Source: Parapedobacter tibetensis (GTDB lineage Bacteria; Bacteroidota; Bacteroidia; Sphingobacteriales; Sphingobacteriaceae). From it: a stretch of 64,000 nt of DNA. Below the pieces are notes generated by a model that saw only the letters and a list, made by a program, of their open reading frames with translations, was not told the origin of the DNA and did no database searches. The translations under genes and the position numbers were made by a program. Of this stretch, positions 25,611 to 35,040 are shown in pieces. The stretch spans positions 186,001 through 250,000 of the forward strand of contig NZ_JAMXBE010000001.1 in the NCBI RefSeq assembly GCF_024704835.1. Reading direction: 5' to 3'. The number at the start of each line of letters is the position of its first letter. The first letter of the stretch is position 1.

Positions 25611-26132
25611 TTAAAACCGAATAAACGCCTCTATCTGTTCATTGGTGAAACGTAGCGTATCGACTTTATAAAGGTCGCCCGCTTCATTTAGCTCACTGAA
25701 AATATGCGGGATGTGGATGCGTAGAGGCAGTACGTTCAAGCGAACATAATGGCAAACACCCGTGAAATGGTCTACACCACGCACATTGCCATATTTGCCA
25801 CTGGAAAGCCCCACCAATGCTGCTTTCTTATTGAAAAAACTATCAGGGAACTTGCAAGCATCCACAAATGTCTTTAAGATGCCCGGGAAGCTGCCATTAT
25901 ACTCAGGAATCACGAAGATAAACTTTTCCGTGGCTATGATGCGTTCCTGTACGGGCTTGAACGTAGCGCTGCACTTGCCGTACATATCTGCCGAAATGAA
26001 ATTGGCTTGTAGGTCGGCAAGCGAAAGCACATGCGCACCTACGCCTTTTTCCACTAGCTTGCGCTGGTAGTAACTGGCCAATTTGAATGTATTGCTATGC
26101 GGACGATTTGTCCCCGAGACGATTGTAATCAT
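25611..26132 (-). CDS. NADPH-dependent FMN reductase-like flavoprotein
   Basis: A 173-residue flavodoxin-like protein. The N-terminal GTNRPHSNTFKLA is the phosphate-binding loop for FMN, and EYNGSFPGILKTFVD matches the conserved YNGSxPGxLKN-type motif of the family. Members reduce FMN, azo dyes, quinones or chromate using NAD(P)H in the cytoplasm. It is divergent from parA across a structured intergenic region and convergent with the M16 operon. Function beyond the fold is not determined. Confidence 0.88.
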   Translation of the reverse strand: MITIVSGTNRPHSNTFKLASYYQRKLVEKGVGAHVLSLADLQANFISADMYGKCSATFKPVQERIIATEKFIFVIPEYNGSFPGILKTFVDACKFPDSFFNKKAALVGLSSGKYGNVRGVDHFTGVCHYVRLNVLPLRIHIPHIFSELNEAGDLYKVDTLRFTNEQIEAFIRF

Positions 26133-26185
26133 TATAATATCATTTAAAAAGCATAGGTGATAACTTATCTTGAACGCTTAATGCT

Positions 26186-26262
26186 CATATGGACATTATT
26201 TCTTCGTTATCAGCCATATGGAATATTCATGTGAATTTGCGCTATAAGGCATCATGAATATT
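26186..26262. repeat. Two inverted repeats between the FMN reductase and parA
   Basis: CATATGG (26186-26192) pairs with CCATATG (26214-26220). GAATATTCATG (26221-26231) pairs with CATGAATATT (26253-26262). Both are perfect over 7 and 10 bases. They lie immediately upstream of the larger multi-branched element before parA. Confidence 0.6.
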
Positions 26263-26276
26263 TCGTATCTTAGCCC

Positions 26277-26431
26277 CTCGTATTCGTACCTGTTGAAATG
26301 CCCAAAAGTACAAATTAACGGATACTTCTGGGCGCCCAACAACAATGTTTGTATGGTTTGGCTCGTTTTTATTCCAAACGTAGCCACCAAATGTGGGATA
26401 TTCCCACATTTGGTAAACAGATACGAACGAA
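26277..26431 (+). other. Multi-branched inverted-repeat element upstream of parA (structured RNA or MITE-like)
   Basis: An outer stem, TCGT-TCGTACCTGTT (about 26277-26294, with a 2-base bulge) against AACAGATACGA-ACGA (26416-26430), encloses three hairpins. These are CCCAAAAGTA/TACTTCTGGG (26301-26310/26323-26332), GTTTGG/CCAAAC (26356-26361/26374-26379), and a 13-bp perfect stem ACCAAATGTGGGA/TCCCACATTTGGT (26386-26398/26402-26414) with a 3-base loop. The architecture is that of a closed multi-helix junction. It ends about 26 bp before the parA ATG, so it could be a 5'-leader RNA, a regulatory DNA site, or a small palindromic mobile element. No known RNA family was recognised. Confidence 0.6.
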
Positions 26432-26456
26432 AAAGGATCATTTTTTATCATTATTC

Positions 26457-27254
26457 ATGGGTAAAATTATTGCAATAGCCAATCAAAAAGGAGGTGTTGG
26501 CAAGACTACCTCATCCATCAACCTGGCGGCGAGCTTGGCGGTGTTAGAGTATAAAACGTTGTTGGTGGATGCTGACCCACAGGCCAATTCTACATCGGGG
26601 ATCGGGTTCGATCCGCGTACCATCAAATCCAGTGTCTATGAGTGTTTAATCAATGACCTGGATCCACATGAAGCCATCCAGCATACCGATACGCCCAATC
26701 TGGATTTGATGCCTGCGCATATTGACCTTGTAGGTGCTGAAATTGAAATGATCAACCTGCATGAGCGGGAATTCAAAATGAAGCAAGTATTGCGTCAAAT
26801 CAGCGATGAGTACGATTTCATCGTAATCGATTGTTCGCCCTCTTTGGGCTTGATTACCATTAATGCCTTGTCAGCCGCCAATTCGGTTATCATCCCTGTA
26901 CAATGTGAATATTTCGCACTCGAAGGATTGGGCAAATTGCTCAATACCATCAAAATCGTACAAAACAGGCTCAACACCGACTTGGAAATCGAAGGTATTT
27001 TACTGACCATGTACGATGTACGTTTACGGCTGTCTAACCAAGTGGTGGAAGAAGTGAAATCGCATTTCAACGAATTGGTCTTTGACACCATCATACAGCG
27101 CAACACACGGCTAAGCGAAGCACCAAGCTTCGGCATATCCGTCATCATGCACGACGCCAATTGCAAAGGCGCTATTAACTATTTGAATTTGGCACGCGAG
27201 ATACTCCAAAAAAACGGCCTAGCAAAAGAAGAGAAAGAACAGGTAACTGTATAA
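26457..27254 (+). CDS. parA: ParA chromosome-partitioning ATPase (Soj)
   Basis: A 265-residue cytoplasmic ATPase from the ATG at 26457, where the protein begins MGKIIAIANQKGGVGKTT, the deviant Walker A motif at its usual position. An upstream in-frame start at 26349 would add 36 residues translated from the palindromic element and is rejected. Further motifs include VDADPQANST and VIDCSPSLG (Walker B). ParA forms ATP-dependent gradients on the nucleoid that move ParB-parS complexes apart during segregation. The parB stop-start gap is 1 bp. Length and order match other Bacteroidota. Confidence 0.97.
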   Translation: MGKIIAIANQKGGVGKTTSSINLAASLAVLEYKTLLVDADPQANSTSGIGFDPRTIKSSVYECLINDLDPHEAIQHTDTPNLDLMPAHIDLVGAEIEMINLHEREFKMKQVLRQISDEYDFIVIDCSPSLGLITINALSAANSVIIPVQCEYFALEGLGKLLNTIKIVQNRLNTDLEIEGILLTMYDVRLRLSNQVVEEVKSHFNELVFDTIIQRNTRLSEAPSFGISVIMHDANCKGAINYLNLAREILQKNGLAKEEKEQVTV

Positions 27255-27255
27255 C

Positions 27256-28176
27256 ATGGCAGCACAACAACGGAAAATTGGATTGGGTAAGGGATTGAGT
27301 GCATTGCTCAATGATTCGGAAGATGTAAAGCGGCAATCCGAAAATAAATCGGTGGGGGAAGTGCCGGCACAAAAAGTGCCCGGCAATATCAGTACAGTAA
27401 ACGTTTCACAAATCGCTATCAACCCTTTTCAACCGCGGACGGATTTCGATGAGGACGCACTGCGCGAATTGGCGGATTCCATCAAGTTACAAGGTCTCAT
27501 ACAACCCATAACGGTGCGCCAAACAGCTAATGGCACCTATCAATTGATTAGTGGCGAACGACGGTTGAGAGCCTCAAAACTCGCTGGACTCACTGAAATA
27601 CCAGCATACATCCGCACAGCCAATGACCAGCAGATGTTGGAAATGGCCCTCATCGAGAATATCCAACGCGAAAACCTCAATGCCATCGAGGTAGCGCTGA
27701 GTTTTCGGCGGATGATCGAGGAATGCAACCTCAATCAAGAGGAGCTTGGCGAACGGGTGAGCAAAAACCGTTCAACAGTGACCAATTACCTACGCTTGCT
27801 GAAATTACCTCCAGTCATACAGGCTGCCATTCGTGATGGACAGCTCAGTATGGGGCATGCACGAGCACTTGTCAATGCGCCTGAGGTGGATAAGCAACTA
27901 TATATTTTCCGCGAAATCATCAAGAAAGGACTTTCTGTGCGAAGGACCGAGGAACTGGTGCGCGAAATGCAACAACAGGCTACCAAGCAATCCAGTAAAC
28001 GTGACAAACCTTCCCCCCTATCCTTCCAGTACCAGAAAGTGGAAGATGACTTGGCTTCCAAATTCGCGACGCGGGTGAAGCTTAAGGTCACTGACAGAAA
28101 GGGCATCGGTGCCATTGAAATCCCATTCCATTCCGAAGATGATCTGAATAGAATCCTCGAATTATTAGACTGGTGA
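27256..28176 (+). CDS. parB: ParB chromosome-partitioning CTPase/DNA-binding protein
   Basis: A 306-residue protein. The N-terminal GLGKGLSALL contacts ParA. The ParB/sulfiredoxin fold carries the CTP-binding motifs GERRLRAS and ENIQRENLNAIE. The helix-turn-helix follows (VSKNRSTVTNYLRLLKLP), then a C-terminal dimerisation segment. It binds parS sites and spreads as a CTP-dependent clamp. It starts 1 bp after parA and overlaps the next gene by 4 bp (ATGA), so the operon continues. No full parS site (TGTTNCACGTGAAACA) was seen near the operon. Confidence 0.97.
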   Translation: MAAQQRKIGLGKGLSALLNDSEDVKRQSENKSVGEVPAQKVPGNISTVNVSQIAINPFQPRTDFDEDALRELADSIKLQGLIQPITVRQTANGTYQLISGERRLRASKLAGLTEIPAYIRTANDQQMLEMALIENIQRENLNAIEVALSFRRMIEECNLNQEELGERVSKNRSTVTNYLRLLKLPPVIQAAIRDGQLSMGHARALVNAPEVDKQLYIFREIIKKGLSVRRTEELVREMQQQATKQSSKRDKPSPLSFQYQKVEDDLASKFATRVKLKVTDRKGIGAIEIPFHSEDDLNRILELLDW

Positions 28177-33377: not shown

Positions 33378-34094
33378 TTAATGTAATTTACTGAGGTACT
33401 GTTTGATAGTTTCTTTTAGTCCTAAATAAAGCGCATCGGCAATCAGCGCATGTCCGATACTTACTTCCAGCAATCCCCGTATATGTTGGTTAAAATACTT
33501 GAGATTATTCAGATCGAGATCATGTCCGGCATTGAGCCCCAATCCCGCTTGTTGCGCCACCTCTGCAGCCATTACATAAGGAGCGATGGCCTGCTCCCGG
33601 TCGTGGTGATATCCGCTGGCATACGCTTCCGTATATAGCTCTATACGATTGGTACCTGTTTTTGCAGCAGCTTCCACCATGGTAGGATCGGGATCTACAA
33701 AAATGGATACACGTATACCTGCCTCCTTAAACAGTGTACAGGTATCTTGGAGGTAGGATTGATGCTTGATGGTATCCCAGCCGCGGTTTGAGGTCAATTG
33801 ACCAGGGTCATCTGGCACTAGGGTCACCTGAGCCGGTCGGGTATCCAGCACTAAGCTGACAAACTTCTCCTCGCGGCTATTTCCCTCTATGTTCAGCTCC
33901 GTTTTGATATTTGCCTTCAGATCATATATGTCCTGATACCGGATATGTCTTTCATCCGGGCGTGGATGCACAGTGATGCCTTGAGCGCCAAATCGTTCGC
34001 ACGCCAATGCCGCATGGAGCACATCTGGGTTGTTTCCACCTCGTGAATTCCGGAGTGTTGCTATCTTATTGATATTTACAGAAAGTCTTGCCAT
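33378..34094 (-). CDS. pdxJ: Pyridoxine 5'-phosphate synthase
   Basis: A 238-residue cytoplasmic TIM-barrel enzyme of vitamin B6 synthesis. It condenses 1-deoxyxylulose 5-phosphate with 3-amino-2-oxopropyl phosphate. The start at 34094 gives [16 protein letters not shown], the expected N-terminus; a -7 box lies between it and the upstream in-frame ATG at 34169, arguing against the longer form. Family motifs are [25 protein letters not shown], split here as seen ([14 protein letters not shown]), EGNSREEKF, and [13 protein letters not shown]. Length agrees with E. coli PdxJ (243). Confidence 0.95.
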
Positions 34095-34109
34095 GGGAAT
34101 TACTTTTTG

Positions 34110-34117
34110 CAAACTTA
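34110..34117 (-). promoter_or_regulatory. Candidate -7 promoter box for pdxJ
   Basis: The minus strand reads TAAGTTTG, an exact TAnnTTTG match, ending 15 bp before the ATG at 34094. The transcript would carry a leader of only about 10 nt. Confidence 0.45.
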
Positions 34118-34185
34118 GATAAAAAAGTTTTATACGCAGTTGTTCGCTAATTGACGATTTCAGTTCCATCCATGATGAAGCTATA

Positions 34186-34218
34186 AAACCTAACAGGTTT
34201 TAGAAACCTGTTAGGTTT
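34186..34218. repeat. Perfect 15-bp inverted repeat (AAACCT family) between pdxJ and cdaA
   Basis: AAACCTAACAGGTTT (34186-34200), the loop TAG, and AAACCTGTTAGGTTT (34204-34218) form a perfect 15-bp stem. Each arm is itself nearly palindromic. Unlike the other copies it lies between divergently transcribed genes, 31 bp before the cdaA ATG, so a terminator role is not obvious here. Confidence 0.8.
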
Positions 34219-34248: not shown

Positions 34249-35040
34249 ATGGAGAGCTTTGACCTCAGCTTTTTCAGTATAAGATTGCTGGACGCGATTG
34301 ACATCATTTTGGTGGCTATCATCCTTTATTACATATACAGCCTTATCCGTGGCACCATTGCTGTCAACATCCTTATTGGCTTAGGGCTCATCTATGTGAT
34401 ATATATCATCGTAAGGCAATTCAACATGCATTTACTCACCGAGATTTTCGGGGGGTTCATCAGTGTTGGTTCCATTGCGCTCATCGTGGTTTTCCAACAG
34501 GAAATCAGACGATTTCTTATCCATATCGGTAAGAACATATCTGTAAGGCGAAAAAATCTACTGTGGTCTATCTTCGTGAACAAGAAGACTGCCGATCAGG
34601 ATAACCGAGCGCACCTCAAACCCATTATCGATGCCTGTAGGAGCATGTCTAAATCATACACCGGTGCGCTGCTTGTTTTCTCTAAATACTTTGATGAGGA
34701 ATACTACCAAAGCAGCGGTGAATACATTGATGCCCAGCTTTCCAAGCGTCTGCTCGAAAGTATATTCCAAAAAAATAGCCCATTGCATGACGGGGCAGTG
34801 GTCATTGTCGACTTCAAGATTAAAACCGCCAGTTGTGTGCTTCCGCTTTCAGATAGTGAGGATTTGCCACTCCATTTTGGCCTGCGCCATCGTGCCGCTA
34901 TCGGGGTCACCGAAGTGAGTGATGCCGTGGCTGTGGTGGTTTCCGAGGAAACCGGTGAGATTTCGTTTGCCAAGGATGGCAATGTAAACATGAATATCAG
35001 CCACGAGGAGCTGGAAGAGCTACTCAATGCTTCGATATAG
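34249..35040 (+). CDS. cdaA: Diadenylate cyclase CdaA
   Basis: A 263-residue inner-membrane enzyme. Three N-terminal transmembrane helices (about residues 12-32, 37-56 and 66-84) precede a DisA_N cyclase domain. The catalytic motifs are DGA at 181-183 (SPLHDGAVVIVD) and RHR at 213-215 (GLRHRAAIG). It makes cyclic di-AMP from two ATP, a messenger that controls osmolyte balance and envelope stress. It is monocistronic: a repeat-type terminator follows. The usual Firmicutes partner CdaR is not next to it. Confidence 0.95.
   Translation: MESFDLSFFSIRLLDAIDIILVAIILYYIYSLIRGTIAVNILIGLGLIYVIYIIVRQFNMHLLTEIFGGFISVGSIALIVVFQQEIRRFLIHIGKNISVRRKNLLWSIFVNKKTADQDNRAHLKPIIDACRSMSKSYTGALLVFSKYFDEEYYQSSGEYIDAQLSKRLLESIFQKNSPLHDGAVVIVDFKIKTASCVLPLSDSEDLPLHFGLRHRAAIGVTEVSDAVAVVVSEETGEISFAKDGNVNMNISHEELEELLNASI

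Follow-up and report, generated by a model that had tools for sequence, protein, structure and literature searches.

The 64-kb window, the whole stretch of Parapedobacter tibetensis DNA that was analysed, contains a divergent gene pair separated by 324 bp. On the minus strand, positions 25611 to 26132 encode a reductase of the FMN_red family (Pfam PF03358, E 6.1e-23), and parA occupies 26457 to 27254 of the plus strand (Pfam AAA_31, E 1.1e-68; CbiA, or CobQ/CobB/MinD/ParA, E 2.1e-25), followed on the same strand by parB at 27256 to 28176 (Pfam HTH_ParB, ParB_N and ParB_C). The folded stretch before parA, at 26277 to 26431, is real. It lies near the parA start, as the first-pass annotation had it, but the distance given there as about 26 bp is 25 bp, since the parA ATG is at 26457-26459. 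The inverted repeats that had been reported further upstream are present (26216-26231 with 26253-26268, 88%; 26153-26164 with 26206-26217, 83%), and a further palindrome lies at 26179-26198 (85%). An 81-aa minus-strand open reading frame that crosses much of this DNA (26196-26441) was without a match in a Pfam search.

As plus-strand RNA, the 26277-26431 stretch has a minimum free energy of -59.0 kcal/mol (z -8.0), and as minus-strand RNA one of -69.8 (z -8.7); on neither strand did any of 200 shuffles go so low. As single-stranded DNA it reaches -34.9 (z -7.0). When 851 plus-strand windows of 155 nt were scanned over the 64 kb, with 25 shuffles each and the grid phased to contain this stretch, its z of -7.0 was the minimum. 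Because folding is stronger on the minus strand (-69.8) than on the plus strand (-59.0), these energies do not favour a reading as plus-strand RNA.

The architecture is close to the one first described, an outer stem of about 15 bp around three hairpins: the enclosing stem is real, with 14 pairs in the plus fold (26278-26294 with 26416-26430; pair probabilities 0.68-0.98), but it encloses four hairpins. The first of these, at 26300-26333, covers the predicted reductase promoter box discussed below, is partly common to relatives and has 82% of cells paired, and the additional one, at 26334-26357, is weak (probabilities 0.39-0.90; 41% of cells paired). These are followed by a 9-pair hairpin at 26360-26385, seen in the fold and the pair probabilities, in which GGCTCGTTT pairs with AAACGTAGCC around one bulge, and by a hairpin at 26386-26414 whose 13 bp (26386-26398 with 26402-26414, loop TAT) are perfect, as had been claimed, and which is found in this genome only. 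Pair probabilities in the extended leader are 0.66-1.0 for the outer stem and for the 26300-26333, 26360-26385 and 26386-26414 hairpins. A scan of the whole window for perfect inverted repeats (arms of at least 11 bp, loops of 3-12) returned four, among which the 13-bp hairpin ranks second after one of 15 bp at 34186-34218. That longer hairpin, with a 3-nt loop, also lies between divergent open reading frames (crude calls, 33378-34169 on the minus strand and 34249-35040 on the plus strand).

Several identities proposed or conceivable for such an element were examined by similarity searches. The earlier remark that it belongs to no recognised family agrees with Rfam, where nothing in the window reached the gathering score; the lowest E in a permissive search of the window was 0.38, for a microRNA precursor model far below its cut-off, and three other loci were likewise without a match at gathering score. 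No intrinsic terminator, taken as a GC-containing stem plus a T run, was found on either strand of 26100-26500.

The idea of a small palindromic mobile element finds no support, as a search for further genome copies returned none beside the element itself, and the left half of this single copy is predicted promoter DNA that matches all eight relatives. A mobile repeat with its own terminal repeats finds no support either, the left half having a homologue without the stems in 8/8 relatives. When the 110-bp right part was used as a query (E up to 1), it gave a third, weak match in its own genome and matches in 252 of 301 family genomes, with the two best candidates scored per genome; among the matches listed outside this genome, lengths were 16-46 bases and the best E was 0.0018. 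A recurring 22-bp match (21 identities), which in five of six inspected loci falls where a ychF-like gene encoding a GLPNVGKST motif begins, was set aside as chance.

A role as a partition site finds no counterpart in the sequence either, for a search of its own genome with a parS consensus, allowing up to two mismatches, gave no match in the element or elsewhere in the window. The same search located two identical palindromes, TGTTCCACGTGGAACA, 45 bp apart at C23:402657-402717 (locus L125), each two mismatches from the consensus; the reversed control pattern gave two chance matches per strand. The TGTTCCACGTGGAACA string occurs in papers on parS, and the pair, which lies on a different contig from parAB, probably represents parS sites.

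Comparison with relatives separates the gene arrangement from the fold. The divergent FMN-reductase/parA pair is kept in all eight other Parapedobacter genomes, each of which matches the region, and parA stands divergent beside the reductase in 79 of the 80 named loci that encode the reductase (the eight congeners included); at the 80th, L089, parA was not found within the stretch examined. The intergenic region measures 324 bp here vs 92-185 bp in the eight congeners, and the distance from the end of the parA box to the ATG is 183 nt vs 63-124 nt. A leader RNA controlling parAB had been among the first suggestions, with lack of conservation of the stems in close relatives named as an observation that would speak against it. 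None of the eight congeners has an equivalent of the outer stem or of the 13-bp hairpin, which goes against a conserved leader RNA. In an alignment of nine species, where the row of relative L008 begins downstream of its parA box, these two elements have letters on both sides in the window alone. For the 5' arm of the outer stem the relatives have homologous DNA of varying sequence; its 3' arm, the 13-bp hairpin and most of the 3' arm of the third helix fall within about 60 bp that are absent from 8/8 relatives, the outer 3' arm being found in this genome only. For the 26360-26385 helix, five of nine pairs have letters in Parapedobacter composti (L004) and none do in the other seven.

Covariation in the stems was not convincing. 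Pairs changed on both sides numbered 4 vs 2.9 in shuffles (158/500 as high), and the covariation score was reached by 12/500 shuffles, which is within what relatedness alone can give. An apparent covariation of an older outer stem, noticed by eye, was dismissed after a permutation test on seven species (the short-leader relatives L017 and L018 left out), in which the observed energy was reached in 1907/5040 permutations for the plus strand and 1028/5040 for the minus strand; the inner stem of the hairpin over the reductase box was also without co-variation (1440/5040).

Across the family, mean z over 79 parA leaders was -0.44 on the plus strand and -0.82 on the minus strand, and over their first 70 nt -1.02 and -0.79, vs -0.36 for 55 upstream controls, although the share with z < -2 hardly differs (10/79 for the first 70 nt, plus strand, vs 6/55 controls). 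The whole leaders with a plus-strand z < -4 were that of the window and that of Olivibacter sitiensis (-4.6). The latter (L022 / L102) folds strongly, with a minimum free energy of -36.7 and a plus-strand z of -4.6 to -4.95, and its fold was not seen in four other genomes of its genus (plus-strand z 0.8 to -1.4). On the minus strand, the first 70 nt reach z values of about -4.2 to -4.7 in three congeners (L014, L016, L019), a signal that corresponds to the hairpin over the reductase box; this older hairpin may serve a separate function, a point that we count against our preferred reading.

The 80 intergenic regions compared (79 loci plus the window, close relatives not thinned out) share short promoter-like boxes. 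The motif TATCTT[TAG]?[AG] occurs in 79 of them (50 shuffles: mean 5.8, maximum 12), the exception being L040, which reads TATCTTCG; in the window it is represented by TATCTTAG at 26266-26273, the predicted -7 box of parA. Facing it, an exact minus-strand TAnnTTTG (CAAANNTA) is found 25-50 nt from the parA-box start in 43 of the 80 (50 shuffles: mean 2.1, maximum 5), at an offset of 36-38 in 32 of the 43. The window again has such a box, TACTTTTG at 26303-26310 on the minus strand. The 37 regions without an exact reductase box in that interval count against a promoter pair, though one of them, L016, is in that group by scoring only, the last TATCTT, close to the ATG, having been taken as its parA box.

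Two studies place the SigA -7 box at -12 to -5 (PMC9723704; PMC6847099), and from this span transcription would begin at about 26278 for parA and about 26298 for the reductase, giving a predicted overlap of 21 nt between the 5' ends. With the boxes placed as they are in 26266-26310, the two mRNAs would be able to pair with each other over about 21 nt at their predicted 5' ends, an arrangement seen repeatedly in the family. The predicted parA +1 at 26278 coincides with the first paired base of the outer stem (pair 26278-26430), and the element is therefore essentially the predicted parA 5' leader, which would run for 179 nt (26278-26456) by the box-to-ATG distance.

The two boxes differ in how closely they resemble known promoters. 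On the reductase side there is an exact TACTTTTG at a conserved place, as in a SigA -7 box. The parA box, by comparison, is conserved in 79/80 regions, yet one of the six fixed positions of TAnnTTTG is not matched, with A for a fixed T, and 29 upstream regions of the window show no excess of its general form, TANNTTAG (3 vs 3.2 in shuffles); the parA box thus rests mainly on conservation and could be another kind of site. In the same 29 regions, taken from crude open reading frame calls (parA called from a later ATG) and compared with single-base shuffles, TANNTTTG has 15 sense-strand occurrences (shuffles: mean 3.2, maximum 9; backward motif 5), but its 12 antisense-strand occurrences count against a promoter reading; TATCTT[TA]G occurs four times vs a shuffle mean of 0.45. 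No -33 TTTG stands out in column counts of the intergenic regions, and passages of PMC6847099 describe the -33 element as weak in F. johnsoniae too. Judged from sequence, what the relatives share looks like an ordinary overlapping, oppositely directed promoter pair, not the fold.

Other features of these intergenic regions were noticed in passing. Among the sequences listed, regions L021-L088, many of them from Mucilaginibacter, show by eye, upstream of the parA box, both long inverted repeats and a TGTTTGTAA..CTGTGGATTTC stretch that recurs. A DnaA-box-like TTATNCACA is present in 9 of the 80 regions and absent from that of the window.

Since what the relatives share looks like the promoter pair, the element is best read as the elaborated parA leader of one species, and not as a conserved RNA or partition site. 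We consider it reasonably likely that this leader, lying over the conserved promoter pair, has been enlarged into a closed domain, which may have a stabilising or insulating effect. Of the three options first offered, a 5' leader fits best, in that the predicted start is the first base of the outer stem, but the stems are not conserved in the congeners. In the sequence of events that we propose, the conserved face-to-face SigA-type (TAnnTTTG-like) boxes would serve parA and the divergent FMN reductase, with parA transcribed from 26278, and about 60 bp, placed after the promoter core and ahead of the parA start codon, would have been gained here, not lost elsewhere. As this DNA pairs with older sequence and with itself, the RNA would close into one multi-helix domain that begins at its predicted first nucleotide and stops 26 nt short of the AUG. 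The closed stem might hide the mRNA 5' end from decay and insulate the start region, giving mild stabilisation of parAB, and its arms may have arisen by local inverted copying. Mean unpaired probability around the start is 0.57, vs 0.44-0.65 in congeners, so the domain seems not to change access to the start codon. In the model, 12 of the 20 bases preceding the AUG are unpaired more than half of the time; the AUG itself is mostly paired (unpaired 0.40-0.47), which counts against our reading. The leader probably acts, if at all, by protecting the 5' end or by insulation.

Measured from 26263 to the ATG, this genome has 58 nt more than P. composti has in the corresponding stretch, and the addition, judged by eye, extends from about AAACGTAGCC to GAAAAAG. 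At 26419-26427 the 9 bp of 26262-26270 recur exactly in inverted orientation, and the arms of the extra DNA are complementary to older upstream sequence, suggesting local inverted copying, a process (template switching) described for RNA hairpins in PMC8794818. The species-specific stretch, a perfect palindrome plus arms complementary to older flanks, would also be in keeping with a functionless, neutral by-product of template switching during replication, and when the right part was reverse-complemented and aligned to the left part, its score was reached by just 16/2000 shuffles. However, the middle part of this alignment does not stand out from chance (271/1000 shuffles reach it), and the relatives are all too distant for the event to be seen; we regard a purely neutral origin as distinctly unlikely. 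An inverted duplication of the whole leader was also considered and rejected, these same counts lending it little support.

It is unlikely, though less so, that the fold is a structured leader with a function in controlling parAB, either riboswitch-like or protein-binding, and of recent origin in this lineage. The very low fold energy, a closed architecture that begins at the predicted +1 and the second, unrelated strongly folded parA leader of O. sitiensis would be in keeping with such a role, but the stems are not kept in 8/8 congeners, the O. sitiensis fold was not seen in the four other genomes searched of its genus, and the element shows neither an Rfam match nor a terminator-like site. 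A DNA site between the two facing promoters, such as a cruciform or the operator of a regulator, could draw on the palindromic hairpin over the reductase box, on the good folding of both strands and on the DNA z of -7.0; given that the element lacks a parS-like match and that the arms of the shared hairpin do not co-vary (outer 1907/5040, inner 1440/5040), we hold it to be highly improbable. A broader conjecture, which we rate as quite improbable, is that Sphingobacteriaceae parA leaders sit on conserved overlapping promoters and that this Parapedobacter and O. sitiensis independently grew a closed domain that tunes parAB, possibly in competition with the antisense pairing of about 21 nt.

As it stands, the fold is real but its place is ordinary and it belongs to one lineage, and the case illustrates that even a striking fold may be confined to a single lineage. 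The information conserved before parA looks like facing promoters rather than RNA structure, and if the predicted overlap of 5' ends is true, there would be a physical coupling in this family between partition-gene expression and the promoter of a redox enzyme.

The locus can be compared with three known systems. Relative to Bacteroidota SigA promoters (TTTG / TAnnTTTG), the parA box here differs by its A for a fixed T, while the exact TACTTTTG on the reductase side corresponds and the TATCTTAG on the parA side is conserved in the family. Structured mRNA 5' leaders of flavobacteria, as presented in passages of PMC9723704, resemble this element in having a strong fold in a Bacteroidota mRNA leader; unlike them, the leader here is a predicted one and its stems are not kept within the genus. 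The hairpins made by template switching that PMC8794818 describes are unlike the present case in that no ancestral state was found here and the inverted copying is weakly supported, but the likeness lies in the structure itself, a perfect stem in one lineage with arms complementary to its flanks.
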